From IMG/VR virus record IMGVR_UViG_3300024520_000165, positions 1-42,216 of that record: a DNA stretch of 42,216 bases, one strand, 5' to 3'. The position numbers were made by a program, and so were the translations under genes. Below, one piece after another: positions 1 through 28,333 of this stretch. The notes beneath the pieces were generated by a model. That model saw only the letters and a program-made list of their open reading frames with translations. It searched no databases and had not been told where the DNA came from. How positions within the stretch are numbered: position 1 is the stretch's first letter; each line of letters starts with the position of its first letter. Origin of the DNA: a virus.

Positions 1-129
1 TATGATGAGCCCGTCAACAGCAGTGGCGACACGGTACCGCCTCTCGCCGGCTCCCGCTAGCGAGGGGCGGTTTCCGTTTCAGGCTCCGGGTTCCCGCACG
101 AGGTGGCATTCCAGTCGGTGTCGACCAGG
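1..129. repeat. Terminal direct repeat, left copy
   Basis: Bases 1-129 recur at 42088-42216. Bases 4-129 match exactly; base 3 is T here and C at 42090. The sequence carries the last 24 codons of the small gene ending at 57 and its 3' flank. The simplest reading is a contig overlap from a circular or circularly permuted molecule, since about 127 bp is a common assembler overlap. A true short terminal repeat cannot be excluded. Confidence 0.95.
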
Positions 130-251
130 CCGTCGCCGTCCGTGTCCTCCCCCGCGTACTCGCAGACCGTCCCGCCCTCGTCTCCCCAGCAGCACCAGAG
201 CTGCGAGGGCTCCGCGAGCAGGATCGGGGCCAGGATCCAGAGCCACCTCAT
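57..251 (-). CDS. Small exported Cys-rich protein with Ca-binding-like acidic loop
   Basis: A 64-residue protein. It begins with a hydrophobic Sec-type leader (residues 1-17), followed by Cys20, Cys21, Cys30 and Cys52. Residues 36-46 form an acidic DxDxDG loop like those in calcium-binding thrombospondin type-3 or EF-hand repeats. The ATG overlaps the stop of the upstream gene by one base (TGATG), the same coupling used throughout this strand, which fixes the start. The product is probably exported to the periplasm and disulfide-bonded. The 3' end lies inside the terminal repeat. Function is unknown; calcium binding is inferred from the motif alone. Confidence 0.6.
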   Translation of the reverse strand: MRWLWILAPILLAEPSQLWCCWGDEGGTVCEYAGEDTDGDGLVDTDWNATSCGNPEPETETAPR

Positions 252-427
252 CAGCGCCCGAACTTCGACTTCTTCTTCGTCACGCGCGGCGCGGGCGGTT
301 GGTGGGTCGGCGGCTCTGCCCGCTTCGCAAGCGCGAGCTTCGTCTTGGCGATGATCCGCTCCTTCGTGCGGTAGTGGATCCCTGAGTTGGCGAGAACGCC
401 CTCGAGCACTTCGAGAAATTCGTCCAT
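251..427 (-). CDS. Small basic hypothetical protein
   Basis: A 58-residue protein with an acidic/hydrophobic N-terminus (MDEFLEVLEGVL), a Lys/Arg-rich middle and a basic tail (KKKSKFGR). The start is supported by a GGGAGGA ribosome-binding site seven bases upstream. The stop overlaps the ATG of the next gene (TGATG), so the two are probably translationally coupled. It starts back to back with the plus-strand gene at 464. No family is recognised; the basic C-terminus could contact nucleic acid, but that is a guess. Confidence 0.6.
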   Translation of the reverse strand: MDEFLEVLEGVLANSGIHYRTKERIIAKTKLALAKRAEPPTHQPPAPRVTKKKSKFGR

Positions 428-448
428 GATGGTTCCTCCCGGCCAGGA

Positions 449-457
449 TGGTACGCT
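449..457 (+). promoter_or_regulatory. Candidate extended -10 promoter element
   Basis: TGGTACGCT has the TGn extension plus a TAnnnT hexamer. It ends six bases before the ATG at 464, so transcription would start at or within a base of the start codon and give a leaderless mRNA. The same motif occurs at 9453 and 32725, before other plus-strand genes. No -35 match is visible and the motif is short, so this is tentative. Confidence 0.3.
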
Positions 458-463
458 GCATCC

Positions 464-850
464 ATGCGACTCGCCCTCCTCGTGGTCCCGCTGGCGCTCC
501 TCGGCGCCGCCATCTTCCCGCCCCAGGTCGGCGGAGACTTCCGCTTCGCCGTGCAGCAGCCCTGCCCGGTCCTCGATGCCGGCGGAGTCCCCGAGGTGCC
601 GCCCGGCCTCTCGGTGGGGATCGAGCCACAGGCTGGCGGGGTGGCGATCCTCTGCATCCCGACCCCAACCTGCGGCCCGGAGACCCGCCACGAGGGTGTG
701 GTGAAGCTGACCGGGAACGCGAAGCGGCAAGCGTACATCGGCCGCGCCTTCACCGAGCTGACCTGCCAGGGGGCAGCCTCCGAGCCGAGTCTCGAGACGG
801 CCTACACCTACCCGGGCATGAAGCCGAAGAAGGCCATCCTCACCGACTGA
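464..850 (+). CDS. Exported four-cysteine hypothetical protein
   Basis: A 128-residue protein with a clear signal peptide (MRLALLVVPLALLGAA) and a mature part with four cysteines (34, 64, 70, 101) that could form two disulfides. It is the only plus-strand gene in the otherwise minus-strand left arm, and it is divergent from the gene starting at 427. No Shine-Dalgarno sequence is visible, and a promoter-like element sits directly before the ATG. It resembles the other exported phage proteins of this genome in design (leader plus Cys pairs) but not in Cys spacing. Function is unknown. The antisense frames are open but lack ribosome-binding sites. Confidence 0.6.
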   Translation: MRLALLVVPLALLGAAIFPPQVGGDFRFAVQQPCPVLDAGGVPEVPPGLSVGIEPQAGGVAILCIPTPTCGPETRHEGVVKLTGNAKRQAYIGRAFTELTCQGAASEPSLETAYTYPGMKPKKAILTD

Positions 851-920
851 TCCGCCGGATCGCCTCGTCGGCCCACGGCGCGGCGGCCTGGATGGCGCAG
901 CGGATCCGAGCGCGCAGCAC
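840..920 (-). CDS. Possible 26-residue peptide
   Basis: A short frame starting at GTG, rich in Ala, Arg and Ile, that could form one amphipathic helix. A TAGAGGA sequence (partly the stop of the preceding gene) lies about eight bases upstream and could serve as a ribosome-binding site. Its end overlaps the end of the convergent plus-strand gene by 11 bases. No family is recognisable at this length. It may equally be a chance frame. Confidence 0.25.
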   Translation of the reverse strand: MLRARIRCAIQAAAPWADEAIRRISR

Positions 921-931
921 CGCGCGGTCCT

Positions 932-1159
932 CTAGCGGGACGGGCGCACACTGAGCTTGCGGGTGTCCGGCTGCACGACTGGCGGCCGGAACCCCCACGC
1001 TTTCAGCGCCGCCGCCACCAGCGGCTCCAGCTCGTCCATCAGCGCATGGCACGAAGGGCAGAAGTATGATGCCCCCAGGTCGATCCACTCCGGGGTGTAG
1101 AGGGACACGTCTACTTCCGCGATGCTGTGACACTGGAAGCACGCCCACGTTCTAGTCAC
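932..1159 (-). CDS. Small zinc-finger protein (two CxxC)
   Basis: A 75-residue protein with two CxxC pairs (CFQC at about 7-10 and CPSC at about 34-37), spaced as in a zinc ribbon. GTG is the likely start; it overlaps the previous gene's stop by eight bases. Such proteins are common among phage early genes and usually bind nucleic acid or host proteins, but the partner cannot be read from the sequence. It lies directly downstream of the capsid-linked-protein paralogue and is probably co-transcribed with it. Confidence 0.7.
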   Translation of the reverse strand: MTRTWACFQCHSIAEVDVSLYTPEWIDLGASYFCPSCHALMDELEPLVAAALKAWGFRPPVVQPDTRKLSVRPSR

Positions 1160-1715
1160 CGGCGAGGTAGGTCATCTCCACCGTCATCCACAGCGGGGCC
1201 TGGACCCCCATGTCGACGATCGTGAAGGCGAGGATGTACTCGGTGAAGGGGTCACGCGGCAGCCCGAGCAGCTCCCATATCGGCTTGTGAGCATTCTCCG
1301 GCCCGTGGAGCGGCGCAAACGTCAGCGGGTTGATGGTGTCGCCCCGGTAGGAGATCTCGAATACGCGCTTGGCGACGAACGAGTGCGAGTCGTTCATGAA
1401 GAGAGCACTGTTCACGTCCGAGCCGTTCATCGCGTAGAGGCCGAGGTCGCTCAACGAGATCTCGGTAACGCCAGGAGGATCGCTGTGCGGGATCGCGTCG
1501 CAGGAGACGAGGATCTGGTCGATCACCCAGTCGGACTGGACGATGAACAGGTCGACCCGGTCCCCGATCGCTTCGATCGCACCCCAGTCGAGCTCGAGCA
1601 CGGCAGAGATCCGGCGGAGGCGCCCGCCTCCCCACGTCACCCGGTTGAGGGGCTTCGAGGAGGAGGCGAACTGCTCCATCCAGTCTGACCTGACGACCTT
1701 CACGCCGTAGTCCAC
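1152..1715 (-). CDS. Paralogue of the capsid-linked protein at 9543-10085
   Basis: A 187-residue protein beginning at GTG. Its C-terminal half aligns by eye with the 180-residue product encoded just after the major capsid gene. Shared blocks, in order, are DLGLY (90-94 versus 81-85), NAHKPIWE versus NAHQPLWE (141-148 versus 127-134), DPF, and a TYLAGD versus LYVAGD C-terminus ending at the last residue in both. The N-terminal halves differ. It sits in the minus-strand array, far from the structural genes and on the opposite strand. It may be a second decoration or head-associated protein, or a decoy or inhibitor of assembly; neither is shown. The paralogy itself is visible in the sequence. 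Confidence 0.75.
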   Translation of the reverse strand: MDYGVKVVRSDWMEQFASSSKPLNRVTWGGGRLRRISAVLELDWGAIEAIGDRVDLFIVQSDWVIDQILVSCDAIPHSDPPGVTEISLSDLGLYAMNGSDVNSALFMNDSHSFVAKRVFEISYRGDTINPLTFAPLHGPENAHKPIWELLGLPRDPFTEYILAFTIVDMGVQAPLWMTVEMTYLAGD

Positions 1716-1900
1716 TCCCTGCGCCGCATCGCGCGCCGCTTGAGCTTAGTGCGCTGCGAGCGTGGCAGCCCGTACCAGTAGGACCGCCACGCATGTCGAC
1801 GCACACGCCCGCGCCGGGCGAAGCTCGAGTCGCTGTGGTTCGGCTCGACATACTCGCCTTCCAGCCAGCGAGCTTCCTTCCGGCGCGGGCGCTTCCTCAC
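1700..1900 (-). CDS. Small arginine-rich hypothetical protein
   Basis: A 66-residue, strongly basic protein (Arg/Lys-rich, with tryptophans in RRHAWRSYWYG). It starts at GTG inside a GTGA overlap with the preceding stop, which sets the start. It overlaps the next gene by 16 bases. The composition fits nucleic-acid binding, but no domain is recognised. It lies in the chain of overlapping early genes between the zinc-knuckle protein and the capsid-linked-protein paralogue. Confidence 0.6.
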   Translation of the reverse strand: MRKRPRRKEARWLEGEYVEPNHSDSSFARRGRVRRHAWRSYWYGLPRSQRTKLKRRAMRRREWTTA

Positions 1901-2145
1901 AGCTTCTGCTCGTCGATCTTGTGGTCCCCGCACCAGTCCGACGTGAAGACCGCCGGCCAGCCCGCCATCCCCGGCGCGCGTCGCCTGCACCTCCCGATCG
2001 AGGGCGATATGTCGCCGCGCTCGGTCAGCTTGAGGACGAAGAACATGCAGGTCACGCACTTCATCGTCATGCCGCGATGCCGCCAGTTGTCCTCGCTAGT
2101 CGTGAGGGGAGTCGGGACCGGCTCTGCGTAGCTTCCGGCCCCCAT
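1897..2145 (-). CDS. Small Cys-motif protein (CxxC...WCGxH type)
   Basis: An 82-residue protein. The core has CVTC, then GRCRRRAP, then a WPAV segment and WCGDHK. This order of cysteines, arginines and the WCG motif recurs in many small phage and bacterial proteins of unknown function and looks like a zinc knuckle. The ATG overlaps the preceding stop (TGATG), favouring this start; an internal ATG before the MKCVTC segment is possible. Probably an early accessory protein. Confidence 0.7.
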   Translation of the reverse strand: MGAGSYAEPVPTPLTTSEDNWRHRGMTMKCVTCMFFVLKLTERGDISPSIGRCRRRAPGMAGWPAVFTSDWCGDHKIDEQKL

Positions 2146-2417
2146 CAGAGCAGCGCCATCTGGCCGTTGTCCCACCGGATCGTGTGGGCCGCGAACTTCT
2201 CTTCCGGCAGGTTGAGCTTCGCCTTCACCTGGACCTCGTTGCGGCGGGCCTTCGTATCGCTCCCCGGATCGTCCACCATCTCGATGGTGACGACCAGCTT
2301 GCAGACCGTCTTCTCCTCCGGGTCCGCATCCTTCATGGCCTGCGCCATCGTGGCCACGTTGCGCTCGATCAGGCCGGCTGCGTCTTCGACCAGAACCTTC
2401 CGTGATACCTCGTCCAT
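2145..2417 (-). CDS. Conserved-looking hypothetical protein
   Basis: A 90-residue protein, with an alpha-helical N-terminus (VLVEDAAGLIERNVATMAQA) followed by an alternating hydrophobic segment (KLVVTIEMV) and a second one (EVQVKAKLNL), suggesting a small alpha/beta fold. Start and stop both sit in one-base TAATG/TGATG overlaps with neighbours. No family can be named. The position next to the sigma-like protein suggests an early role. Confidence 0.65.
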   Translation of the reverse strand: MDEVSRKVLVEDAAGLIERNVATMAQAMKDADPEEKTVCKLVVTIEMVDDPGSDTKARRNEVQVKAKLNLPEEKFAAHTIRWDNGQMALL

Positions 2418-2638
2418 TAGGATCCCCCTGCTTCCAGCGCGGTGAGTCGCGCGTGGACTGCTTCGAGTGCCTCCTGCTGGGCCTCGACCGTAGCGAGTAG
2501 CGACCGGACCACCTTCCGGTTCGCGTTCACACCCTCGATGATCTTCTGCTCGCGGAACGTCTCGATCATCCTCGGATGGAGCTTCGCGTTGCGCTCTATC
2601 TTCTTCGCCTGACCGGGCGGGACGACGGGCTTCGCCAT
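2417..2638 (-). CDS. Small helical hypothetical protein
   Basis: A 73-residue protein. A basic N-terminus (QAKKIERNAK) leads into a long predicted helix from about residue 38 (RKVVRSLLATVEAQQEALEA) with heptad-like spacing, so it may form a coiled-coil dimer. The ATG overlaps the stop of the HTH gene upstream. Function is unknown; co-expression with the HTH protein is inferred from the overlap. Confidence 0.65.
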   Translation of the reverse strand: MAKPVVPPGQAKKIERNAKLHPRMIETFREQKIIEGVNANRKVVRSLLATVEAQQEALEAVHARLTALEAGGS

Positions 2639-2979
2639 CAGTAGAGCCCCGAGTCGGTGAGGAAGGTGTGGAGGCACGAACTCGATCCGCTGTGGTGGTG
2701 CGACCCGTCGCAGATCGTGCAGCGCTTCCACGCTCGCTCCGTCCTCGTGACGTAGCGGACCTCCTTGATCGCGTGCCTCTCCGCGTGCGCTGCGCGCCGC
2801 AGGGCAGTCTCTTCCACCTCGCTACTGCGTGCCGGGCTCCCGGCTCTGGCAAGGATCTGCCGAGTGCGCTCGCGCGAGAGGCCAAACTCGTTCCCGACCT
2901 CCTCGAGCGTCATCCCGCAGAACTCGCGCAGATACGTCATCGCGTAGTCGCGCCGATCCGGGGGACGCCGCCGGCTCAC
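2638..2979 (-). CDS. Sigma-70 region 4-like HTH protein with Cys/His tail
   Basis: A 113-residue protein. Residues 23-46 read like the region-4 helix-turn-helix of sigma-70 factors (MTLEEVGNEFGLSRERTRQI), the part that reads -35 boxes. No region 2 is present, so it is not a full sigma factor. The C-terminal part has CTICDG followed by a His/Ser/Cys segment that may bind zinc. It sits near the promoter-proximal end of the minus-strand array and is the best candidate for an early-to-late transcriptional switch, as no phage RNA polymerase is visible. Its DNA target is not known. Confidence 0.8.
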   Translation of the reverse strand: MSRRRPPDRRDYAMTYLREFCGMTLEEVGNEFGLSRERTRQILARAGSPARSSEVEETALRRAAHAERHAIKEVRYVTRTERAWKRCTICDGSHHHSGSSSCLHTFLTDSGLY

Positions 2980-3074
2980 GTCCGGTCCTTGAAGAAGTCG
3001 CGCTCGAGCGGCGTGGCGACAGGCATCCCCCGGGCCTCCCGCTCTTCGACCTGTTGAGGGGGAACGTCGGGCAA
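2976..3074 (-). CDS. Possible 32-residue peptide before the HTH gene
   Basis: A short frame ending in an ATGA overlap with the HTH gene. TTG at 3074 has a GGGGA about seven bases upstream and lies directly after the stop of the preceding small gene. The product would be acidic, then basic (VEEREARG ... ERDFFKDRT). The frame is open further up to a GTG at 3245, but that longer reading would cover the better small gene at 3076-3180. The exact start is uncertain. Confidence 0.35.
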   Translation of the reverse strand: MPDVPPQQVEEREARGMPVATPLERDFFKDRT

Positions 3075-3075
3075 G

Positions 3076-3180
3076 TCAACGTCCCCGATCGTAGAGCGTC
3101 CTGGCCCAGGGGATGTGCAGCGGCATGGCGATCTCCGAATGACGAGAGCCGTCCTTCGGATCGCGTTGCCGCAGCAGCAT
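3076..3180 (-). CDS. Small hypothetical protein, first gene of leftward array
   Basis: A 34-residue frame from ATG with non-random composition (RHSEIAMPLHIPWARTLYDRG). The ribosome-binding site is weak: GGAG lies too close and GGAGGG about 18 bases upstream. It is the promoter-proximal candidate of the minus-strand array and starts 67 bases from the divergent terminase gene. Function is unknown. Confidence 0.45.
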   Translation of the reverse strand: MLLRQRDPKDGSRHSEIAMPLHIPWARTLYDRGR

Positions 3181-3247
3181 GTCTCCAACGGCTTGCCCTC
3201 CGTGAGACGTCGCGCCCTCACCGCGCGACTGGGGTAGGGTATCACCG
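3181..3247. promoter_or_regulatory. Divergent intergenic region between early and late blocks
   Basis: These 67 bases separate the leftward array from the rightward terminase-to-lysis block. Both directions must be initiated near here unless transcripts come from further away. I see no good -35/-10 pair. TAGGGTAT at 3235-3242 is the most AT-rich spot and the only -10-like stretch for the plus strand. Confidence 0.4.
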
Positions 3248-4225
3248 ATGCCCGGACCCCTCAAGAACACGCTGTGGGAGATGTACGCCCAGGCCCGCGC
3301 GGTTGACTGCTTGGATCAGGCGGAGGCGTACCGCGCCACAGGGCGTAAGGGAGATCCCGTAGATCAGGGCTACCGGCTCTCCAGACGCCCCGAGGTCCAG
3401 TCGCGGATCGCAGAGCTTCAGGCCGAGATGCTCGAAGCCCGCATGAAGAAGGCCCTCTACACCCGAGAGGATGTGATCGAGGGACTGCTGACGAACATCC
3501 GAGAGGCCCGTACCTGCAAGAAGTTCACCGCGCAGGGGCAGCCCGTCACGGATCCGCTGACCGGGCTGCAAGCAACGCTCCTCGACGCGAAGGCAGTCAA
3601 CCAGGGGTGGCATCTGCTGGGCCTGGAACTAGGCATGTTCCCCAAGCAGGCAAACCTCACCCACACGAAGGCCGAGCCATTGGAGGGGTTGACGATCCCC
3701 GAGATGCTAGGCCACATCCAACGAGCTCTGCTGGAGGCCAGTGATGGCGCGATCTCCCTCGACACCGACGACCTCCTCACCCTTATCGAAGGAGGAGAAG
3801 GTCCGGCACGCAGCCCGGCAGCTCATGCGGATCACGGAGCGGAAGATCGCGCTCTACCGGCCCTACCCGAAGCAGCTCCGGTTCCACCAGCAGGGGAAGG
3901 AGAAGCACGAGAGAGCCTTCCTGGCGGGGAACCAGCTGGGGAAGACGACCTGTGGAGCGGCGGAGATGACCTATCACCTGACGGGGATGTACCCGAGCTG
4001 GTGGAAGGGGCTCCGGTTCGAGACGGCGATCAAGGCATGGGCGTCGGGGCCGACGAACCGGAAGACGCGGGATGTGGTGCAGACGAAGCTCGTCGGGAAG
4101 CGGGGCCGATACGGGACTGGGCTGATCCCCAAGTCCTCGATCGCCACGGAGCCGTCGATGAGCCGAGGGCTATCCGGCCTGATCGACACGCTCGAGGTGA
4201 AGCACGCGAGCGGGGGGATCTCTAG
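3248..4225 (+). CDS. terS: Terminase small subunit (frame runs 482 bases into terL)
   Basis: The first ~165 residues look like a genuine small terminase. They contain an N-terminal helical region ending in SRRPEVQSRIAELQAEM, as in other small terminases, then a helical oligomerisation-type part. The gene lies directly before terL. Beyond about residue 172 the frame continues for roughly 150 residues as low-complexity Gly/Ala/Asp/Arg sequence that is simply the +1 shadow of terL. Either the C-terminus really extends, a stop was lost by mutation or sequencing error, or a frameshift occurs. Usual family length is about 150-190 residues. The identity of the N-terminal part rests on weak similarity plus position. 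Confidence 0.65.
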   Translation: MPGPLKNTLWEMYAQARAVDCLDQAEAYRATGRKGDPVDQGYRLSRRPEVQSRIAELQAEMLEARMKKALYTREDVIEGLLTNIREARTCKKFTAQGQPVTDPLTGLQATLLDAKAVNQGWHLLGLELGMFPKQANLTHTKAEPLEGLTIPEMLGHIQRALLEASDGAISLDTDDLLTLIEGGEGPARSPAAHADHGAEDRALPALPEAAPVPPAGEGEARESLPGGEPAGEDDLWSGGDDLSPDGDVPELVEGAPVRDGDQGMGVGADEPEDAGCGADEARREAGPIRDWADPQVLDRHGAVDEPRAIRPDRHARGEARERGDL

Positions 4226-5213
4226 CCTCGCCTTCATGTCCTACGACATGGACGTCGACGCCTGGGCGTCCGACACCCTGCACCTGATCTGGTTCGACGA
4301 AGAGCCCCCGCAGCCACTCTACGACGAGGGCCTCGCGCGCCTCACCGCGACCGGCGGCTCCACCTACATCACCGTCACCCCGCTGCTGGGGATGACGGAC
4401 GTGATGCTCCGCTTCTACCCTCGCCCCGTGAACCCCGACCGGGGCATCACGATGATGGGCATTCGGGACGCCGGCCACATCAAGCCCGAGCACGTCGAGC
4501 GGATCCTGGCCCGCTACCCGGACTACGAGCGCACCGCGCGCGCCGAGGGCATCCCGATCCTGGGGTCGGGGCTCGTGTTCCGCACCCCCGAGGACGCCGT
4601 CAAGATCCCGTCGTTCGAGATCCCCGGCCACTTCGCCCGCATCATCGGGCTCGACATCGGCGGCGGCGACCACCCCACCGCGTGGGTCGATCTGGCGTGG
4701 GACCGTGATGCGGACGTCGTCTACGTCACGGCGTGCTACCGGGTCCGCGATCCCCGGATCCCCCTCCATGCCTCCGCGATCCGGCGGCGCGGCGCGATCC
4801 CGGTCGCGTGGCCCCACGACGCGGCCGCGAAGTCGCACGGCGACGGACGCACCTACGCGCAGATGTACCGGGACGAGGGGTGCAACATGCTCCCCACCCA
4901 CGCCCAGCACGCGGACGGCTCCAACCACCTCGAGCCGGGGATCGCTATGATGCACGAGCGGCTCGCCGGGGGGCGGCTCCGCGTCTTCGAGCACCTGGTC
5001 GAGTGGTTCGAGGAGTACCGGATGTACCACCGCAAGGAGGGGCAGATCGTCAAGCTGGTCGACGACCTCATGTGCGCGACCCGGTACGGGCTGATGATGC
5101 TCCCGCGTGCGGGCTCGGCAAAGCCCGCCAACATCCGGTTTCCTGCTACGGTGGGGATGGACTACGATCCCACCAACCCGGGGCAGCCCGACGGGATGGA
5201 GGAACGCTTGTGA
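3744..5213 (+). CDS. terL: Terminase large subunit (packaging ATPase/nuclease)
   Basis: A 489-residue DNA-packaging motor. Walker A is GNQLGKTT (about residues 61-68), and Walker B is IWFDEEP (about 187-193). The nuclease half shows the expected acidic residues in LDIGGGDH, in WPHDAA and in VDDLMCATRYG near the C-terminus. ATG 3744 has GGAGG six bases upstream, a good site; GTG 3741 and ATG 3825 are alternatives. It overlaps the small subunit frame by 482 bases and the next gene by four (GTGA). It acts at the portal vertex to fill the prohead. Confidence 0.93.
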   Translation: MARSPSTPTTSSPLSKEEKVRHAARQLMRITERKIALYRPYPKQLRFHQQGKEKHERAFLAGNQLGKTTCGAAEMTYHLTGMYPSWWKGLRFETAIKAWASGPTNRKTRDVVQTKLVGKRGRYGTGLIPKSSIATEPSMSRGLSGLIDTLEVKHASGGISSLAFMSYDMDVDAWASDTLHLIWFDEEPPQPLYDEGLARLTATGGSTYITVTPLLGMTDVMLRFYPRPVNPDRGITMMGIRDAGHIKPEHVERILARYPDYERTARAEGIPILGSGLVFRTPEDAVKIPSFEIPGHFARIIGLDIGGGDHPTAWVDLAWDRDADVVYVTACYRVRDPRIPLHASAIRRRGAIPVAWPHDAAAKSHGDGRTYAQMYRDEGCNMLPTHAQHADGSNHLEPGIAMMHERLAGGRLRVFEHLVEWFEEYRMYHRKEGQIVKLVDDLMCATRYGLMMLPRAGSAKPANIRFPATVGMDYDPTNPGQPDGMEERL

Positions 5214-8582: not shown

Positions 8583-9455
8583 ATGAGCTTCCAAGTAACC
8601 GAAGCCTTCGTAAACCAGTTCAAGGACGGGATCACCGTCCGGGCTGCTCAGAAGGAAAGTCGGGTCCGGTCGTTCTTCACGATCGACTCCGGCATCACGG
8701 GCACCAGCGTGTCGAGAGACTTCGTTGGCGCCCGCAGGCCCGCGCAGCGCACCAGTCGGCATGGCGACACGGTGCTGCGCGACACCCCGCACGACCGGCG
8801 CTGGGTCGACATCAAGGTCTACGACGACGCAGACATGATCGACGACCCGGACAAGGTGCGGACCCTGACCGACCCGTCCAACTCGTACTCGAAGGCGATG
8901 AGCGAGGGCTTCGGCCGCCTCATCGACGAGATCGCGCTGGCCGGAGCGATCGGGACCACCCGGACGGGCCAGGACGGCTCGACCACGAGCACCGGCCCGA
9001 CCGCCACGATCACGGAAGGCGGCTCGGTCGGCATGAGCTTGGGCAAGATGACCCAGGTCAAGCGGACCTTCGATGCGGCTGAAATGATGCCGGACCGCTG
9101 CTGGGCCATCACGGCCATTCAGATCGAGGACATGCTCGGTCTGACCGAGGTCACGAACGTGGACTACAACACGGTGCGTGCCCTCGCGGACGGGGCCATC
9201 AACACGTTCATGGGGTACAAGTGGATCCGGGTCGAAGACCCGATCGTTGGCACCAACCCCGCAGACGCGACCCAGCGTCGGACGATCGCGTGGACCCAGG
9301 ACGCCGTCTGGATCGCCTTCGGATCGGACGTGAAGGCGTCGATCGACCGCCGGCCCGACAAGAACAACAGCACCCAGATCTTCTACTCGATGGACATGGG
9401 CGCGGCCCGCCTCGAGGATCGCGGAGTGATCTGGGTGGACTGCGACGAGAGCTGA
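8583..9455 (+). CDS. Major capsid protein
   Basis: A 290-residue protein directly after the scaffold, with a strong GGAGGG ribosome-binding site. The sequence (RSFFTIDSGITGTSVSRDFV, a DIKVYDDADMID block, an Ala/Gly-rich middle, ALADGAINTFMGYKWI and IAWTQDAVWIAFGSDVKA near the end) reads like the HK97-fold capsid proteins of non-T7 podoviruses. The DVKA and DRRPDK segment near the end is typical of that family. Hundreds of copies would form the icosahedral shell. Confidence 0.9.
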   Translation: MSFQVTEAFVNQFKDGITVRAAQKESRVRSFFTIDSGITGTSVSRDFVGARRPAQRTSRHGDTVLRDTPHDRRWVDIKVYDDADMIDDPDKVRTLTDPSNSYSKAMSEGFGRLIDEIALAGAIGTTRTGQDGSTTSTGPTATITEGGSVGMSLGKMTQVKRTFDAAEMMPDRCWAITAIQIEDMLGLTEVTNVDYNTVRALADGAINTFMGYKWIRVEDPIVGTNPADATQRRTIAWTQDAVWIAFGSDVKASIDRRPDKNNSTQIFYSMDMGAARLEDRGVIWVDCDES

Positions 9456-15434: not shown

Positions 15435-18400
15435 TGCCGAAGATCCCCGCCGACATCGGCCTGCCGCCCCTCCAACCTGGCACTGACCCCACAGTCAGCC
15501 CGTCCCGCTCCATCATCCGGTCGACCGCCAACACGCTCTCGACCACCGACGAGCTGATCCAGAACGAGAAGGACGAGGCGGACCGGCTGGGCTTCCTCAA
15601 CTCCATGAGCGCGCTCGAGCGCGAAGTCGGCGAGTTCATGGACGGCCGGCAGAACGACCTCAAGGCGCGCGGCAACGCGGCCGCCTTCGAGGAGACGTTC
15701 AAGAAGCACCCCGACGCGGTAGTGCGTGGCATCCCGTTCTCCCGGCGCGCGCAGCAGCAGGGCAACCTCAAGGCACGCGCCACCCTGAACCTCGCCCGCT
15801 CCAAGATGAACCGACTCGACTTCGAGCGGAACCGCCTCGATGCCATAACGACGGCCACGACGTGGATCGACTCCTCGTCCCAGCTTGCCGCCCGCTCCGG
15901 GCTGGAGCTTGAGGAGTACGAGGCCCAGGTCGACGACGAGCTCCTCAAGGGCTCCGACACCCGCACCTACGACAAGAACGACGAGATGGTGCTGAAGCGG
16001 CTCGCGCTGGGGAAGTACGAGCACTCCGTCCTCACCCTCATGGATCAGCAGGGCCTGTACGGGCCGATGGAGCAGCGCCTCAAGACCACCTTCACCCACA
16101 TGGATCCGCAGGTGGCCGCCAACTGGCGCGCGAAGGCGCTCGCTGGCAAGCAGCGTGTGGCCGAAGCCGACGGCACGCAGCAGATCGTCACGCAAGCCGA
16201 GGCGACCTCTGGCAATGCGTTCGGCGACCCCATCCTGCGCCCTGAAACACGCCGCCGGCTCGCCACCAACGCCTTCACGGCCCGCAGCGCGATCGCCATG
16301 AAGTCCCTCGTCAACGGCCTGCGCCACCTCGAGAGCGGCCAGAGGCTGGAGAAGCAGGAGGTGCTCGACCGCGCCGAGCTGGACCCCGACGTCACCGCCG
16401 AGGGGTTGGAGATCCTCTACGGGATCGCCAACGCAGAGGGTGAAGCCGAACGGATCCGCCGCATCCGTGCCGCAGATACAGGGGCCGACGCTGCGCTCTA
16501 CGAAGACAAAGAGCTTCAGGATGAGCTGATGTCCATCTCGGTCCTCAACCTCGCCAAGTACAACAAGGCGCTCGCAGAAGGGCGACCCGATGCCGCCCGC
16601 GAGCTGGGCCACGTCAGCGAGCCCTGGGTCGACATCGCAGTGCGGACCCACACGCTCCGCCCCGAGCAGGGCGCGCGCCTCCTGAACCTCCTCACTCCGC
16701 CCAAGAGGCGGGAGCCCACAGCCTCCGAGCTGGCCCTCCAGCGCCGTGTGGGACTCATCCGAGCCGGCCAGGAGTTGAACCCCACCAACCCGCTCGACAA
16801 GAAAGCCGGCGAGCTGTTCTACCGCGAGCGCATGATCGAGTTCCTCCACGGCGACGTGGCGCTGTTCAACTCGGGCCAGGAGGATCCGAAGCTCAAGTTC
16901 GAGGTGGGCCGCTTCATCTTCAACGAGCACGGCTACATGCCCGACGACGTGGTTGCAGCCATCGTGGGCCTGTCGAAGAGCAAGGACGCGCAGGACCAGA
17001 TCGAAGCCGGCGAGATGTTCTCCTACTTCCGCAACGCCAACCGATCCGGCTACTCGGATGGACCGTTCCTCGCCAAAGGCGCAACGGTCAAAGAGCTGTC
17101 CCTCCTCAAGTCGCAGGCGGCAGCCGCCCTCAACCGGCCCGCAGACCAGCGCCGTGCAGCAGATCTGGCGCTCGCGCAGTCCAACCAGTTCACGCTGGAA
17201 CAGCCCGAGCTGGGTCAGCGGATCGCCACGAACGTGAAGCTGGGCCTCAGCCAGCCCACCATCCTCGCCAGTGGCGAGAAGGCCATCATGGTGGGGGAGC
17301 AGCGCTTCCCCGTCCCCGACGACGTAGAGCCGCAGGGCTTCATCAAGCTCTTCCACAACCGCATCGGCAAGCGCATGGATGCCTCCAGCGAGGCCGACGA
17401 CCCGAAGGCCCTCACCCTGCTGGAGTGGATCGACGACAACCTGATCCGCACCGGCGACATCGACGTCCTCGTGGACCGAGGCCACGACGACCTCGACGCC
17501 TTCGTCGTGGATCTGCGCGAGCACATGCGGAACGGGATCCGGGTCCACGGCGACGAGACGACGGCAGCCGACAACGCCATCCACGACCTCCTGCTCTCGG
17601 GTAAGTACCAGCTCGAGACAGTCTTCTCGGCCCCCGGCAAGCCGCGCTTCACGAAGTTCGCCACCCGGGGCACCTACAGCGACTTCCAGCTCAAGTATCA
17701 GGAGTCCATCCCGCTGCGGAAGTGGGCCTGGGAGGACATGAACTCCGTCATCATGCCCGGCTACGCCCGACTCTTCACCGAGCCCCACTTCCTGGCCCAG
17801 ATCACCTCCAAGGGGATCGAGCTGGAGGCGCGCGAGCCCGGCTACGACAAGCAGGTCGCAGACTTCATCTCCAAAGACCCGGATGGTGGCTTCGTCGCAG
17901 ACCTCCAGGCGTGGGTCTACGCCGGCATGGACCTGGGCGACCCAGACGTGCGCGAGAACCTCGCCGCCATGACGATGATGAGTATCGACATGGCCGACTG
18001 GACGACAGGAGAGGGCCCGCAGCAGGCGTGGCACTTCATCGCCGGCCAGACGATCCAGATGCTGGAGCGCAACGATATGTTGGTGAGCGCAGAGCTGCGC
18101 TCATACTGGCAAGACGGCCAGGGGAAGGACATCACGCAATTCCACGGTGCCCGGGACGCGCTCCGCACCGCGCGTGCCAACCTCGAAGCCCGAGGGCGCT
18201 GGCCCGTGCAGTGGAAGCCCGTCCCCACACAGCAGCCCGGCCAGCCCTACGTCTACCACCCCGTCTTCCAGAGCCAGTCGATGCCCGGCAACGCGCCGAT
18301 CGAGTGGCTGGAGGAGATGCGGTTCGACCAGACCGACCAGCGCTGGAAGGGGACCGGCCAGCCTCTCGGCTTCGAGCTGGATCCGATGGGCTCCACCTCG

Positions 18401-18823
18401 GTGCGACGTGCGATAGCGATGGACCAACGGTTCTTCCTCTCCGAGCAGGCGGAAGCCAAGGGGTTCTACGACGGCCGCCACACCCGCATGGCGGACCGCT
18501 TCGCCAAGTTCCCCGGCCTCTCCACAGAGGCCCGGGAGGATCCGGCGCTGCGGAAGTTCCTCGCCCGCGACCTGGCGAACAAGACGCGGAACGTGGAGGC
18601 CCGGGACCACGGCGACCCGGGGGACGACGACGACCTGACACTCCTCGAACGCGGCTATCTGCGCCAGATCGACGCCCACCTCGTCACCACGACCGAGATC
18701 CCGCAGGACCAGACGCAGGAGACGATCGACCGGATGTCGGGCTACTACAACGCGATGGGTCGCTGGGTCCGAGACACAGCAGACCGGATCACGGGCGGCG
18801 ATCTCCCGCGCGAGCTCCAGTAA
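15434..18823 (+). CDS. Internal virion protein C (gp15-like ejection protein)
   Basis: A 1,129-residue, almost wholly helical and charged protein. The position between the gp14-like and gp16-like genes fits T7 gp15, which lines the periplasmic ejection tunnel; it is longer than T7 gp15 (747 residues). No enzymatic motif is visible. The ATG overlaps the previous stop by one base, and its own stop overlaps the next ATG (TAATG). Antisense frames of up to 897 codons exist here but are GC-driven shadows. Confidence 0.82.
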   Translation: MPKIPADIGLPPLQPGTDPTVSPSRSIIRSTANTLSTTDELIQNEKDEADRLGFLNSMSALEREVGEFMDGRQNDLKARGNAAAFEETFKKHPDAVVRGIPFSRRAQQQGNLKARATLNLARSKMNRLDFERNRLDAITTATTWIDSSSQLAARSGLELEEYEAQVDDELLKGSDTRTYDKNDEMVLKRLALGKYEHSVLTLMDQQGLYGPMEQRLKTTFTHMDPQVAANWRAKALAGKQRVAEADGTQQIVTQAEATSGNAFGDPILRPETRRRLATNAFTARSAIAMKSLVNGLRHLESGQRLEKQEVLDRAELDPDVTAEGLEILYGIANAEGEAERIRRIRAADTGADAALYEDKELQDELMSISVLNLAKYNKALAEGRPDAARELGHVSEPWVDIAVRTHTLRPEQGARLLNLLTPPKRREPTASELALQRRVGLIRAGQELNPTNPLDKKAGELFYRERMIEFLHGDVALFNSGQEDPKLKFEVGRFIFNEHGYMPDDVVAAIVGLSKSKDAQDQIEAGEMFSYFRNANRSGYSDGPFLAKGATVKELSLLKSQAAAALNRPADQRRAADLALAQSNQFTLEQPELGQRIATNVKLGLSQPTILASGEKAIMVGEQRFPVPDDVEPQGFIKLFHNRIGKRMDASSEADDPKALTLLEWIDDNLIRTGDIDVLVDRGHDDLDAFVVDLREHMRNGIRVHGDETTAADNAIHDLLLSGKYQLETVFSAPGKPRFTKFATRGTYSDFQLKYQESIPLRKWAWEDMNSVIMPGYARLFTEPHFLAQITSKGIELEAREPGYDKQVADFISKDPDGGFVADLQAWVYAGMDLGDPDVRENLAAMTMMSIDMADWTTGEGPQQAWHFIAGQTIQMLERNDMLVSAELRSYWQDGQGKDITQFHGARDALRTARANLEARGRWPVQWKPVPTQQPGQPYVYHPVFQSQSMPGNAPIEWLEEMRFDQTDQRWKGTGQPLGFELDPMGSTSVRRAIAMDQRFFLSEQAEAKGFYDGRHTRMADRFAKFPGLSTEAREDPALRKFLARDLANKTRNVEARDHGDPGDDDDLTLLERGYLRQIDAHLVTTTEIPQDQTQETIDRMSGYYNAMGRWVRDTADRITGGDLPRELQ

Positions 18824-21800
18824 TGCCGATCGTACGCTCCGCCACGCGGCCCTTCGACGTGGACCCCGCCGGCCACGCCCAGACCCCGATGCCCGCCTAC
18901 CAGCCGGGCGCAGGAGCGCGGGCGCTGCGGGGCGCGCTCCGCCGCGAGATGGTGGGCGGCAACCTGCCCGACCTCCTGCGCGTCCGGGTCGCCCAGCTCG
19001 ACGCAGAGCTGATGGGAGAGGCGGGCTTCGACCCCTACGAGAGCGGCTTCTTCGAGCAGAACCCGCACATGATCGACCACCAGCAGGCCCTGTTCGACGT
19101 GCAGAGCGAGCGCCACGCGGACGCCATCTCGGCCAAGGTGCGACGCGAGCTGGAGGACGAGAAGGCGATCCGCGACGGCGGGGTGCCCGGGATGCTGTTC
19201 GCCTTCGGGGCCGGGGTGCTGTCCCCGGAGAACGCCATCCCGATCGGCGTCGTGCTGGCGCGCGCGCGCGGCTTCGCCTCCACGGTGCGCCGGGCTGGCC
19301 TCGCAGGCGGCCTGGGTGCCACGGCGGGCGAGCTGCCCCTCCAGGCCACGCAGGAAACCCGCACCGCGCTGGAGTCTGGTGCCAACGTCGCAGGCTCCGT
19401 GATCCTGGGCGGCTTCCTGGGCGGAGCGGTGGGGGCGCTCAACAAGACCGGCCGCGCCCTCATCAGCCGCCAGCTCGATCTGGCCGGCAAGGAGATGAAG
19501 TCCGACCTCGCCAACTTCACGGAGTCGGGGAAGGCGTACGTCACGGAGTTGGACGTCAGGGGCCGCGCACGAGCCGCTGAGCGGCGTCTGAGGGGCCTCG
19601 TCACTGAGGAGCGTGTGACGGCAGCCTCCGCCCGGGTACGCGAAGCACGCGCCCATGCAGAGAGCCTCGCTCAAACGGCACGAGCGCGCGTTACAGACGG
19701 GATCGCGCAGGCCAAGAAGGCCGCCGTCGAGGGGCGCGAAGCAGCGCGCGCGGCAGCGGAGGAAAGGACGCAGATCGAGCCCGAAACTGCGACTACTCGT
19801 ACGCGGGCGGAACCGCCGGAACCTGCTACGCGCGATCTGATCGCCCAGGAGGCCGACGAGGCTTCGATCGAGGGCATCGCCCCGGAAAGGCCCACCTCTG
19901 CCGAGCTGGCAGAGCGCCCCGCTTCCGAGATCATCGAGCAACTCGAGACAGAAGCCCCGATCGCGCCCCGGCAGCGCATCCTCAACGAGATCCTCAAGGG
20001 CAACGCCGAGGTGATGGAGGCCGCCGGCCTCACCGCCAAGCAGATCCAGGGCATCCAGGCCCGGCTCGCGCAGGGACCGATCGACTCCGTTGACGACCTG
20101 CTCGACGTGAAGGGGATCGGCCCCAAGACGCTGGAGAAGCTCGACACCTTCGCAGCGCGGCCCCTCAAGGACGTGCCGGACGAGGTGCTGCTGGGAGACC
20201 CCGAGGGTCTGACCCCCCTCACCGAGCAGCTCCCCCTCGACGGCGACGCATTCCAGCTCGAGGTGGGCCTGCGCCAGACGGAAGCAGCCGAGCGCGTCAC
20301 CCAAGCGATCGACGAGTCCATCGAAGCGCAGTCGGCCCACATCGAGCAGCTCGACACCGAGGCCAAGAAGACCGAGACGAAGCTCAAGCGCGCCCGCAAG
20401 AAGAAGGAGAAGGCCGAGGAGGTGGCGGCCCAGGAGCGCGGCAAGGGAGAGGCAGAGGCCGAGCCCGCCGAGGAAGCCCTGTTCAACGCCGAAGACGAGG
20501 TGCTCTCCTACGAGCAGGAGATGGAGGTGATCCGCCGGGAGCGCAACCGCTTCAAGCTCACCCGTGGCCTCGGCATGTCGATGCGGCGCAAGATCGTGAT
20601 GGAGCCCGGCCCCACCTCGCCCGCCTCCACCGGCCCGCCCCTGCTCCCTGATCTCCGCGCGGCCCAGCGCGCCCCCACGAAGGTCAGCGCCGTAGAGCGC
20701 CCGGTGGGTGCCCGCGCGCCGATGGAGCGCCCGCGTGCGCCCGGCGACCCGCTCCCCGTCACCGTCTCGCGCCCCCTCGTAGGCGACGCGGACGAGATGA
20801 AGCGCCTCAAGCGGCTGGGCATCACGGAGTTCCAGTCCGAGTTCCCCGCGATCCGCACCCTGCGCCAGGAGCAGGCCCATCAAGTGCAGCGTGCCGCGAC
20901 CGAGCAAGCGGCCCGCGAGGCCACGTCCCGCCAGATGGAACCCACCAGCGGCCAGGACAGGCTGGGCACCCTGGACGAGCAGCGCGCCGACCTCGTCTTC
21001 AGGGGGGAGGATCCGGCCCGCACGATCGGGAGGCAGCGCTTCGAGGAAGCGATGCAGCGCGACATGGAGCTGATGGACTACATCGAGGACGCGATCGAGA
21101 CGACCTCCGATCCCGACCAGCTCCGCGAGCTCTTCGAGGCCCGCGAGAGCGCTCTCTCTCGCTTCACCCAGAACGAGTCCATCTACGCCGAGCGGTTCGC
21201 AGACGTCCGCCGCACCGTCGAGGTGGCAAAGCGGGAGTCTCGGACGGCCATCAAGAAGCGGATCGACGCCCGACGCGACTACCTCCTACAGGAGCTGAAG
21301 AACGAGAAGGCCCGCTACCACAAGCCGGCCGGGGCACCCGAAACGAACCCCCTGATCGCCAAGCTCGAGCGCGAGCTGATGGTGTTGGAGGCCCACGACC
21401 GCCCCGCGCAGGGAGCCGTGGTGATCCGGGGTCTCGGAGTCGCGGTGGGGGAGCTGGACGACATCCACCTCACCGAAGCCAAGCGGGTGCTGTTCGAGGA
21501 TCGCGCGCTCGACAAGCTCTCCGACCTCTACCAGCGCCGCATCGGAGGCGACCCCACGGCCCGCGCCGAGCTGCCCGCCGACAACGCCATGTACCACCGT
21601 GAGCTGGAGATCATGGAGCGACTCGCGGAGGTGAACGACGAGATGAACGTCGCCACCGGCCAGCGCTACCACGACCTCAACGCCGAGCGCGACGGACTCC
21701 TCCGGGCCCAGCAGGATCCCGACCTCGGGCTCTCCGAATACGAGGTGGTGGCGTACACGGACATGATGGAGCAGGCCACGGAGCGGTTCGGCGACGTGGA

Positions 21801-24447
21801 GCAGGGCCGGCTACGCAACCGCAAGGGCTCGCTGATCGACCGCGACGAGCTGACGATCGAGGAGCTCCAGAACATCAGCGCCGGCCTCGAGGACGTCGAT
21901 GCCGAGGACATCGCCGAGCTGCTCGACGACCTCGACGGCCCCGTCGCAGGCGGCATGGCGGTGGAGGACGTGATCCCAACGGGCGTGTCGGTGATGCGCG
22001 ACAAGATCACCCGCATCCTGGGCCTCCCCGACCGCCTCGTGCGGAAGCTGCTCCGCTTCAACCCCATCCTCCGCATGTCGCTCTCCGATCTGGACTCCAA
22101 CCGCATGATGATCCAGCTCTTGACCGATACCGGACTCGACTGGCAGCGGTTCGGGAAGGGCTACTCGTCCTTCGAGAGCGTGTTCGACCGGGTCCAGCGG
22201 CGGTGGGGCTCCAAGGAGTTCGAGATCCTCAAGAGCATCCCAGACTTCTACTTCGAGGACTTGGCCGCGCTCCGTGGCATAGACCCGGAGACCCTCAAAG
22301 GCTTCATCACCCGCAAGTCGATCCTCGCCGGAGAGGCTGCGGGACAGAAGCTGGGCATCACCAAGGCATCCGTGACCGAATGGTACCGGGGCGTCACCCG
22401 CGCGGTGCGGAACAACGGGATCGACGTCAACTCCAAGCGCAGGGTCGGGATCGAGAAGGCCGCCAAGGCGGTGAAGGAGCTGTTCGACGAGAGCCTGACC
22501 GAGATGGTGAACCTCAAGATGCTGCCCGTCGACCTGCGCGAGCAGTACACGGGCGGCTACATGACGCGCGTCTGGAACATCAACAAGCTGATGGAAAACC
22601 AAGAGGAGTGGATGAACATCGTTGCCGGCAAGCTCCAGATCGACGAAGGCATCACGCTCGACGAGGCTGACGGGATCGCGGCTCGCATGTTTGACTCCAT
22701 CACGGCCGGCCCCACCGGACGCCTCGACGACGTCAACTTCATGGAGCGCACCACGCGCGTGACGAAGAAGCGGCGCGTGCCTGGCACCGACAAGGAGTGG
22801 AGCGACGAGGGTTGGCTCACCGACGACATCGACGTGATCCTCCGATACTGGTTCCGCACCGTCCCGCCCGACCTCGAGCTGGCCCGCCTCGACACCATGC
22901 TGACGCCGGCGAACGTCCAGATGCGGGAGGGCTGGGCTCCTGACCCCTCCCTGCGCCGCACGCTACGCCGCGCCCGCCTCCATGCCGAAGAGCAGATCCG
23001 TACCGAGACGACGCCCGACAGCCCCGAGCGCGCCGCCATGCAACGCCAGCTTGCGCGGGCCTACGGGACACGCACCAAGCCCGGCGATCTGCCCGCGATG
23101 GTGCAGATCCTGCGCCGCACCTACGGGATCCCGAAGAACCCCAACTCCCCGCTAGTACGTGGCTCTATCGCCATGCGGAACTTCAACTACCTCGTGGACG
23201 GTGGGACATTCTGGCTCAGCTCACTGCCCGATGTGGGGCGTCCTGTCATGGTGCATGGGGTGAAGCGGGTCTACGGGACCGGCATCAAGGCACTGCTGAA
23301 GGACTGGAGCACCGTCAAGCTGAACGCACGCGAGGCCCAGATCGCCGGCACCGCTGCCGACATGGTGACGAACCGGCGCGTGCAGGAGCTCTACGACCTG
23401 GGCCTGGGGTACGGGCGGGGCTCGAGGGGGGAACGGATCCTCAAGCGGTTCGCCGACGAGTATTCGATCCTCAACGGCCTCTCGATCCACAACACCTACA
23501 TCAAGCAGTGGGAGGCCACGATCGCGGGGCAGCACATCCTCGACGACATCGAGCTGTTCACCTCCGCGCGCTTCGCCGATGGCTCGCCGGGCACCTCCGA
23601 GGCCATGAGGGGTGCGGAACGCCGGCTCGCCAAGCTGGGGATCGACCTCCATGTGGCGCAGCGGATCTGGGGTGAAGTCAAAGACAACCCCGTCCCCAAC
23701 GGCATCCTCCGTGAGATCCGCTCCGAAGACTGGACCGACACCTACGCACAGGGGCTGTTCCGCACTGCGCTGCGCCGCACCATCGACAGCACGATCAACA
23801 CCCCGCACCCGGGCGTGCGGCCGCTCATCTACTCGCGCGAAATGGGCAAGTTCATCATGCAGTACAAGAGCTTCGGCTTCGCCTCTGCGATGCAGACCGC
23901 GATCCCCGGGATGCAACAGCCGAGCTGGGCGTGGCTCCACGGGGCCGCGATCGCCACCGGGTTTGGGATGATCTCCGTCTACCTCAAGAGCCAGGCCGGT
24001 GGCTGGGACGTGCCCGGCCCGGACGACATCAGTTGGTGGATCCGCAACGGCATCGACGCGAGTGGAGTGGCGGGCATCTTCGGCGACGTCCACAACACGC
24101 TGGGCTATGCGACACGCGGCGAGTCCACGATCGGCGCGGCCCTTACCGGCCAGATCGACCCCGCCTACCGCTACACGTCGAGAGGCCCGCTGGGCTCCCT
24201 CCTCGGCCCCAGCGTCTCCACCCTCACCGACATCGGACGTGTCGGCGCAGGGCTGGCCTCCGTGGCTCGAGGTGAGCAGCCGCCCACGCGCGCCTACAAC
24301 GCCGCCAAGCGCATGGTGCCCACCAACAACCACATCCTGGTGAACGCTGGCGTCTGGCAGCCGGCCTTCAAAGAGGCGGAGCGCTATGTGCGCCGCGAGT
24401 TCGTGGATCAGCTCAGCACCACGCGCGGTGTGCCCAGGCCCCGCTAG
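18823..24447 (+). CDS. Giant internal virion protein D (gp16-like ejection protein)
   Basis: A 1,874-residue protein. Residues about 120-165 are hydrophobic. Residues 423-441 form a helix-hairpin-helix (DDLLDVKGIGPKTLEKL). Residues about 500-575 are a Lys/Glu-rich coiled coil. The C-terminal third (YSREMGKFIMQYKSFGFASA, a membrane-like segment, then RYTSRGPLGSLLGPS and NHILVNAGVWQPAFKEAERY) matches gp16-type proteins of T7-like phages. T7 gp16 (1,318 residues) starts with a lytic transglycosylase; no such domain or catalytic Glu motif is apparent here. It probably forms the inner-membrane part of the ejection channel. Confidence 0.85.
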   Translation: MPIVRSATRPFDVDPAGHAQTPMPAYQPGAGARALRGALRREMVGGNLPDLLRVRVAQLDAELMGEAGFDPYESGFFEQNPHMIDHQQALFDVQSERHADAISAKVRRELEDEKAIRDGGVPGMLFAFGAGVLSPENAIPIGVVLARARGFASTVRRAGLAGGLGATAGELPLQATQETRTALESGANVAGSVILGGFLGGAVGALNKTGRALISRQLDLAGKEMKSDLANFTESGKAYVTELDVRGRARAAERRLRGLVTEERVTAASARVREARAHAESLAQTARARVTDGIAQAKKAAVEGREAARAAAEERTQIEPETATTRTRAEPPEPATRDLIAQEADEASIEGIAPERPTSAELAERPASEIIEQLETEAPIAPRQRILNEILKGNAEVMEAAGLTAKQIQGIQARLAQGPIDSVDDLLDVKGIGPKTLEKLDTFAARPLKDVPDEVLLGDPEGLTPLTEQLPLDGDAFQLEVGLRQTEAAERVTQAIDESIEAQSAHIEQLDTEAKKTETKLKRARKKKEKAEEVAAQERGKGEAEAEPAEEALFNAEDEVLSYEQEMEVIRRERNRFKLTRGLGMSMRRKIVMEPGPTSPASTGPPLLPDLRAAQRAPTKVSAVERPVGARAPMERPRAPGDPLPVTVSRPLVGDADEMKRLKRLGITEFQSEFPAIRTLRQEQAHQVQRAATEQAAREATSRQMEPTSGQDRLGTLDEQRADLVFRGEDPARTIGRQRFEEAMQRDMELMDYIEDAIETTSDPDQLRELFEARESALSRFTQNESIYAERFADVRRTVEVAKRESRTAIKKRIDARRDYLLQELKNEKARYHKPAGAPETNPLIAKLERELMVLEAHDRPAQGAVVIRGLGVAVGELDDIHLTEAKRVLFEDRALDKLSDLYQRRIGGDPTARAELPADNAMYHRELEIMERLAEVNDEMNVATGQRYHDLNAERDGLLRAQQDPDLGLSEYEVVAYTDMMEQATERFGDVEQGRLRNRKGSLIDRDELTIEELQNISAGLEDVDAEDIAELLDDLDGPVAGGMAVEDVIPTGVSVMRDKITRILGLPDRLVRKLLRFNPILRMSLSDLDSNRMMIQLLTDTGLDWQRFGKGYSSFESVFDRVQRRWGSKEFEILKSIPDFYFEDLAALRGIDPETLKGFITRKSILAGEAAGQKLGITKASVTEWYRGVTRAVRNNGIDVNSKRRVGIEKAAKAVKELFDESLTEMVNLKMLPVDLREQYTGGYMTRVWNINKLMENQEEWMNIVAGKLQIDEGITLDEADGIAARMFDSITAGPTGRLDDVNFMERTTRVTKKRRVPGTDKEWSDEGWLTDDIDVILRYWFRTVPPDLELARLDTMLTPANVQMREGWAPDPSLRRTLRRARLHAEEQIRTETTPDSPERAAMQRQLARAYGTRTKPGDLPAMVQILRRTYGIPKNPNSPLVRGSIAMRNFNYLVDGGTFWLSSLPDVGRPVMVHGVKRVYGTGIKALLKDWSTVKLNAREAQIAGTAADMVTNRRVQELYDLGLGYGRGSRGERILKRFADEYSILNGLSIHNTYIKQWEATIAGQHILDDIELFTSARFADGSPGTSEAMRGAERRLAKLGIDLHVAQRIWGEVKDNPVPNGILREIRSEDWTDTYAQGLFRTALRRTIDSTINTPHPGVRPLIYSREMGKFIMQYKSFGFASAMQTAIPGMQQPSWAWLHGAAIATGFGMISVYLKSQAGGWDVPGPDDISWWIRNGIDASGVAGIFGDVHNTLGYATRGESTIGAALTGQIDPAYRYTSRGPLGSLLGPSVSTLTDIGRVGAGLASVARGEQPPTRAYNAAKRMVPTNNHILVNAGVWQPAFKEAERYVRREFVDQLSTTRGVPRPR

Positions 24448-27854: not shown

Positions 27855-28333
27855 AACGACTGGCCCTCATCGCCCTCGTCCTGCTGCTGGTGGGCGGAAC
27901 CCGCTTCATCCCGCAGCAGCCACGCCACAGCGAGGAGCTCTACACCTACCGCAACGCTCCCGTCTACGATGGCTTCTGCGCGCTCCAGTCCAGCGCCCAA
28001 CACATCGCAGTCTGGCGTGCGTGCAGCGACAACCGGGACACCCGCTACCGCTGGCCTCGCTCCGCCACCATCACCCACATCGGGTTCCGCATCCGTACTG
28101 CGTTCCCCGCTGGTGGCGGTTGCATCTTCAACCTCGACGTGAACGATGCGCTCCAGTACACCACGGCTGCGCTCACCAGCGCTTCGGGAACCTGGGTGGA
28201 GTTCGTTCTCCCCACCCCGGTCACGATCGCGAAGGGTGACATCACCACCGTCGAAGCCCTCAACGGGGGCGGCGAGACCTGCACCGACAACGTGGCGTGG
28301 GTGGCTCCCGCCTTCTACGGGACGTTCCAATGA
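27851..28333 (+). CDS. Exported protein with one four-Cys beta domain
   Basis: A 160-residue protein. A signal peptide (MKRLALIALVLLLVGG) is followed by one domain with Cys43, Cys58, Cys91 and Cys144 (gaps 15, 33, 53). The gaps are identical to those of the second domain of the next gene and close to the first. The body alternates in beta fashion (ATITHIGFRIRTAFPAGG, GTWVEFVLPTPVTIAKGD), like small receptor- or sugar-binding beta-sandwiches. The ATG lies in an ATGA overlap with the PHP gene. It is likely exported and oxidised in the periplasm. Function is unknown. Confidence 0.75.
   Translation: MKRLALIALVLLLVGGTRFIPQQPRHSEELYTYRNAPVYDGFCALQSSAQHIAVWRACSDNRDTRYRWPRSATITHIGFRIRTAFPAGGGCIFNLDVNDALQYTTAALTSASGTWVEFVLPTPVTIAKGDITTVEALNGGGETCTDNVAWVAPAFYGTFQ

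Follow-up and report, generated by a model that had tools for sequence, protein, structure and literature searches.

The Two Genes and Their Setting

The window, by which we mean the whole stretch of DNA analyzed here, is an entire virus record of 42,216 bases (66% GC), a single contig in a virus collection, with no end repeats. The late genes are on the plus strand and run from terminase (starting at 3741) through portal, scaffold, and capsid to the tail genes, and the right arm lies on the minus strand and carries recombination genes (for Gam-like, Erf/Rad52-type annealing, and ParB-like proteins). The inferred product of the terminase large-subunit open reading frame (3741–5213, plus strand) matches phrog_2 (E = 4.7e-24) and, by tblastn, Microcystis phage MJing1 at 48%. 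The major capsid gene (8583–9455, plus strand) is of the HTVC010P type, as judged by matches to PF19821 (E = 1.2e-57) and phrog_3437 (E = 9e-65), and its product matches proteins of Pelagibacter phages at 38%–41%. A DNA-level search of the GenBank phages gave no relative for the first 15 kb.

Elsewhere in the window we noted a 2,241-codon open frame in the tail/internal-virion region (17722–24447, plus strand), which overlaps the end of the preceding 1,129-codon frame, and, in the right arm of this podovirus, a 522-residue ParB-like protein with a ParB N-terminal domain and a helix-turn-helix domain (33524–35092, minus strand). The products of two plus-strand genes, 464–850 and 27851–28333, begin with similar hydrophobic, signal-peptide-like stretches (MRLALLVVPLALL... 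and MKRLALIALVLLL...); no family match was found for either product.

Directly after the capsid gene lies the gene for a 180-residue protein, P0002 (9543–10085, plus strand). A second gene, 7.8 kb away on the opposite (minus) strand, encodes a related protein, P0001 (1152–1703, 183 residues), as judged by BLASTP, start-site signals, and an AF2 model. The sequence-only reading had described a 187-residue product, and the open reading frame does indeed reach back to a GTG at 1715 (1152–1715). The GTG at 1703 is the more likely start, however, because it overlaps the stop codon of the upstream gene (GTGA) and is preceded by AGGGAG 11 nucleotides upstream. The GC content of P0001 by codon position (0.60/0.41/0.90) is as in the structural genes, and thus P0001 looks like a coding sequence.

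P0001 is the sixth of seven minus-strand genes, running from 2979 to 932, that overlap at every junction (TGATG, TAATG, TGATG, TGTGA, GTGA, and an 8-nucleotide overlap). The first clear gene of this operon (2638–2979) encodes a 113-residue protein whose only recognizable domain is a sigma-70 region-4-like helix-turn-helix (PF04545, E = 3.8e-9; phrog_351, E = 2.6e-4), followed by a Cys/His-rich tail; tblastn with this protein gave no match among GenBank phages. There follow genes for proteins of 73 residues (2417–2638, TGATG junction), 90 residues (2145–2417, TAATG junction), 82 residues (1897–2145, Cys-rich), and 66 residues (1700–1900, Arg-rich), the last of which has a TGA that overlaps the GTG start of P0001. 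Downstream of P0001, and overlapping it by 8 nucleotides, is a gene for a 75-residue protein with two CxxC pairs (932–1159), which by eye resembles a zinc ribbon. No relatives of the other operon genes were present in the cement-family loci that we gathered.

P0001 Is a Paralogue of P0002 and Belongs to the Cement Family

The two proteins can be aligned by BLASTP over their whole length (residues 9–187 of P0001 with 6–180 of P0002; 30% identity, E = 4e-14). Their local alignment score of 126 compares with 28.8 ± 4.3 for 1,000 shuffled sequences (z = 22.6), and the next best of 376 frames of the window scored 47. With P0001 as query, matches were also obtained to the capsid-adjacent proteins of Pseudomonas prophages (E = 4e-9) and to that of contig L143 (E = 3.7e-14). 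In the whole-record search, one in-frame TGA was seen at the L143 locus (G161:C1:2748–3254), the closest of the cement-family matches to P0001.

Searches of Pfam, PHROG, and PDB with the single sequences returned no match for P0001 or P0002, and no PHROG was matched directly by P0001. Likewise, scans of viral contigs with P0001, P0002, or the capsid protein singly, or with an alignment of P0001 and P0002, yielded no relatives; alignments that included proteins of other phages were required. A seed of three sequences (P0001, P0002, and a post-capsid protein of another phage), when iterated, recruited 81 proteins of other phages encoded directly downstream of HTVC010P-type capsid genes. At 123 further family loci the gene was again the next after the capsid gene, with overlapping open frames at two of the 123. 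At one locus (L102, G010:C14:1380–1802) the cement-family domain lies within a 536-codon open frame after the capsid gene and is possibly fused to another domain.

The family matches phrog_486 and phrog_8455, both annotated as "virion structural protein," and an alignment that includes P0001 and P0002 (A4) matches the cement proteins of phages Pam1 (7eel_H, E = 8.8e-12), GP4 (8h89_J, E = 5.9e-8), and, weakly, KHP30 (7dn2, E = 0.05); a further profile (A8) reaches Pam1 cement only at E = 0.29. A post-capsid family profile from which all window proteins were left out matches P0002 at E = 9e-11. P0001 is matched weakly by HTVC010P-type profiles that exclude it, at E = 0.05–0.14 when P0002 is left out too and at E = 0.003 when P0002 is included.

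The AF2 models of P0001 and P0002 (pLDDT 76 and 79, moderate confidence) both display an Ig-like beta-sandwich fold. Cement chains rank at the top of the Foldseek results for both models, and the top PDB matches of the P0001 model are the cement proteins of GP4, Pam1, and KHP40. By VIA-align the top four structures were the same in the two cases, with Z scores to Pam1, GP4, KHP30, and KHP40 of 10.8, 10.0, 8.9, and 8.4 for P0001 and of 11.3 (7eel_H), 9.8, 9.5, and 9.1 for P0002. Both models were built on one shared family alignment, and the P0001 model therefore cannot serve as separate evidence of homology.

We conclude that P0001 is a true paralogue of P0002, as had been proposed from the letters of the DNA; the pairwise score, the independent matches to capsid-adjacent proteins of other phages, membership in the profile, and the predicted fold all point the same way. 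The alignment score is significant and the predicted folds are similar, and both the cement-family homology of P0001 and its predicted fold can be regarded as close to settled. The ordered blocks said to be common to the two proteins are real (G.GR.RR, AIGDR, DLGLY, NAH.P.WE, DPF.EY, and the AGD end). So is the matching C-terminal ending, and this "YxAGD" proves to be a family trait, as relatives end in YVVD, YVDGN, or YVAGD. What had been thought of simply as a head protein is now more sharply defined as a member of the cement (decoration) protein family.

Genes of the family customarily lie beside that for the major capsid protein, although the structure does not demand this placement; P0002 has it and P0001 does not. 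P0002 can most probably be taken as the phage's cement protein, given its match to the family profile, the matches to PHROGs for virion structural proteins, and its relatives among solved cement proteins. It would be an ordinary cement protein, expected to form trimers on the capsid at its quasi-threefold axes. The HTVC010P-type phages are among the most abundant marine podoviruses, and a likely function and structure can now be offered for a family that is mostly labeled "hypothetical protein" in them.

A Second Copy Appears to Be Rare among Relatives

Whole-record searches revealed a family match in about 225 other records, each with one copy apart from two exceptions that we dismissed, and wherever position was checked the family gene of these relatives adjoins the capsid gene. 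A second copy like P0001 in a divergent operon was not found in these related records, nor was an orthologue of the minus-strand copy; the relatives recruited by a scan seeded with P0001 were rejected as orthologues, all being ordinary capsid-adjacent cement genes. Of the two exceptions, one (G186/L168) is a 14.2-kb contig in which 76% of positions agree with its reverse complement and two mirror-image copies lie equally far from opposite ends, an assembly artifact. In the other, genome G032, the second match lies on a different contig and is weak (E = 0.009). Because many of the records are fragments (36 of the approximately 225 are virus records of at least 30 kb), the rarity of the two-copy arrangement is a less secure conclusion than the paralogy. 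What is new here is a second cement-family copy that is diverged and belongs to another operon.

P0001 Has Lost Much of the Family Consensus

To describe the divergence of P0001 we used 50 columns with at least 80% identity in 25 other family members. P0001 keeps the consensus residue at 22 of the 50 and P0002 at 34, and each of the other 25 members, in leave-one-out comparisons, keeps 35–44 of 44–49. The losses in P0001 affect 17 of the 23 conserved positions in the N-terminal arm and the GGAVVDADFFASA strand motif, compared with 11 of the 27 remaining positions (Fisher p approximately 0.02 for this post hoc split), so that these two regions contain 17 of its 28 losses; two of the losses in the arm, at its first residues, hinge on the choice of start codon. 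Core positions are retained (for example, D90, G92, Y94, W147, L152, D155, P156, and Y160). P0001 also has consensus residues that have been lost from P0002 (F106, K144, L150, and G151), and for this reason it was not copied recently from P0002 in its present form.

In trees P0001 is on a very long branch (1.9–2.4 changes per site as compared with a median of 0.4–0.5), and its grouping with P0002 as sisters is weak (37/21 in the last tree). Topology tests gave p-AU values of 0.58 for P0001 with P0002 (not rejected), 0.32 for P0002 with the Pseudomonas proteins, and 0.07 for P0001 with the Pseudomonas proteins. The trees thus fit both an old duplication in the lineage and an acquired gene as the possible origin of P0001 and cannot choose between them.

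The Operon and Its Expression

The sequence-only reading had placed P0001 in an early-type minus-strand array. The strand is correct, and the array is better described as a separate operon: the plus-strand gene at 464–850 lies between it and the minus-strand genes of the right arm. It diverges from the terminase gene, whose transcription points away from it. The case for early control of P0001 is only circumstantial, and is based on the divergent operon shared with a sigma-70 region-4-like gene and on a homologue of a neighbor, the 82-residue protein, in MW202484 (E = 6e-16), which sits near cro, NTP-PPase, and rusA genes and so hints at early expression of the operon. The synonymous codon usage of P0001, which is of the structural type (+0.07 bits per codon) and differs from that of right-arm genes (−0.03 to −0.25), points the opposite way, but it tracks local GC content and, given the GC gradient along the genome, is a confounded clue to timing. 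No promoter-like site was found in positions 1–4000.

Possible Roles of P0001

Given where the gene lies, how far it has diverged, and that its frame is intact, P0001 is likely not simply a spare cement gene. Judging from its sequence, P0001 is probably a repurposed cement-fold protein, acting either as an accessory decoration of the capsid or away from it. Our leading reading, which we hold with about as much confidence as doubt, is that P0001, strongly diverged and the phage's second member of the Ig-like trimeric cement family, serves as an accessory decoration protein. P0001 keeps the predicted beta-sandwich core, and a large share of the conserved residues has gone from the N-terminal arm and from the most strongly conserved strand motif; on this reading it would still fold and probably oligomerize, presumably as trimers, in the manner of a cement protein. 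It may then bind a subset of capsid sites or be mixed into cement trimers, and the sites bearing it would display a different outer surface.

The lost consensus of the arm also bears on a tentative alternative, namely that P0001 works off the capsid as an early protein, its cement fold co-opted as a regulator or a host-directed factor made together with the sigma-like protein. In Pam1 the N-terminal arm reaches a neighboring subunit and the E-loop of the capsid (PMC9698820), and the loss of its consensus in P0001 could mean that binding to the capsid has ceased, a point against the leading reading. The loss of the strand-motif consensus, the operon shared with the sigma-70 region-4-like gene, and the MW202484 neighborhood would fit this alternative too, as would the precedent of P4 Psu, a capsid decoration protein that also inhibits host Rho (PMC11718236, PMC7567579). 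Against it are the structural-like codon usage, confounded as it is by local GC, and the want of a promoter-like site in positions 1–4000. A fuller version, in which the cement gene was duplicated, moved to a divergent early operon, and shed its capsid-anchoring arm to yield an early nonstructural protein, we regard as rather doubtful; were it true, one phage genome would show a structural fold converted to regulatory or host-directed work.

We consider it unlikely that P0001 modulates assembly, mixing into or competing with P0002 trimers and so delaying cementing until the head expands. The predicted core fold is the same in the two proteins and the changes in P0001 are concentrated in the arm and strand-motif regions, as such a role would have it, but the approximately 225 relatives manage with a single cement gene. 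Less probable still is that P0001 is a nonfunctional, decaying extra copy or a gene of another phage that landed in the operon; the long branch and the weak sister grouping would be in keeping with this, whereas the intact frame of 183 codons, the GC content of 0.90 at third positions, the overlapping junctions on both sides, and the conserved core residues, including the four that P0002 has lost, argue otherwise. Finally, we dismiss a chance resemblance of two small beta-rich proteins, which is refuted by the z score of 22.6 and by the cement proteins of other phages that P0001 matches independently. A chimeric contig, as might be suspected of a single contig without end repeats, we regard as very unlikely, since P0001 is tightly overlapped by its operon neighbors and lacks the adjoining second capsid gene expected of a piece of another phage's head module.

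The diverged copy offers a natural test for telling the segments of a cement protein needed for capsid binding from those needed for folding, and for whether components of a capsid can be recruited to other tasks.

Comparison with Known Systems

Both models match by fold the cement proteins of cyanophage Pam1 (7EEL), Ralstonia phage GP4 (gp1, 8H89), and Helicobacter phages KHP30 and KHP40 (7DN2, 7DOU), and the family profile also matches those of Pam1, GP4, and KHP30 by sequence. P0001 and P0002 belong to the same family as the post-capsid proteins of HTVC010P-type phages and Pseudomonas prophages. P0002 has the same position as these proteins, whereas P0001 is encoded on the other strand, some 8 kb distant, and is without most of the GGAVVDADFFASA motif. 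P4 Psu shows that a decoration protein can take on a regulatory role as well, but any likeness of P0001 to it would be one of analogy only. Shigella phage Sf14 has two decoration proteins of different folds, the beta-tulip gp33 and the Hoc-like gp20 (PMC11821841); the present phage would resemble it in having two such proteins, but its cement-family pair are paralogues. In GP4, gp1 is a 157-residue Ig-like protein that forms trimers at the quasi-threefold axes, with 540 copies per head (PMC9698820). The GP4 head is described with a single cement protein, whereas the phage studied here has a second, diverged gene copy in another operon.
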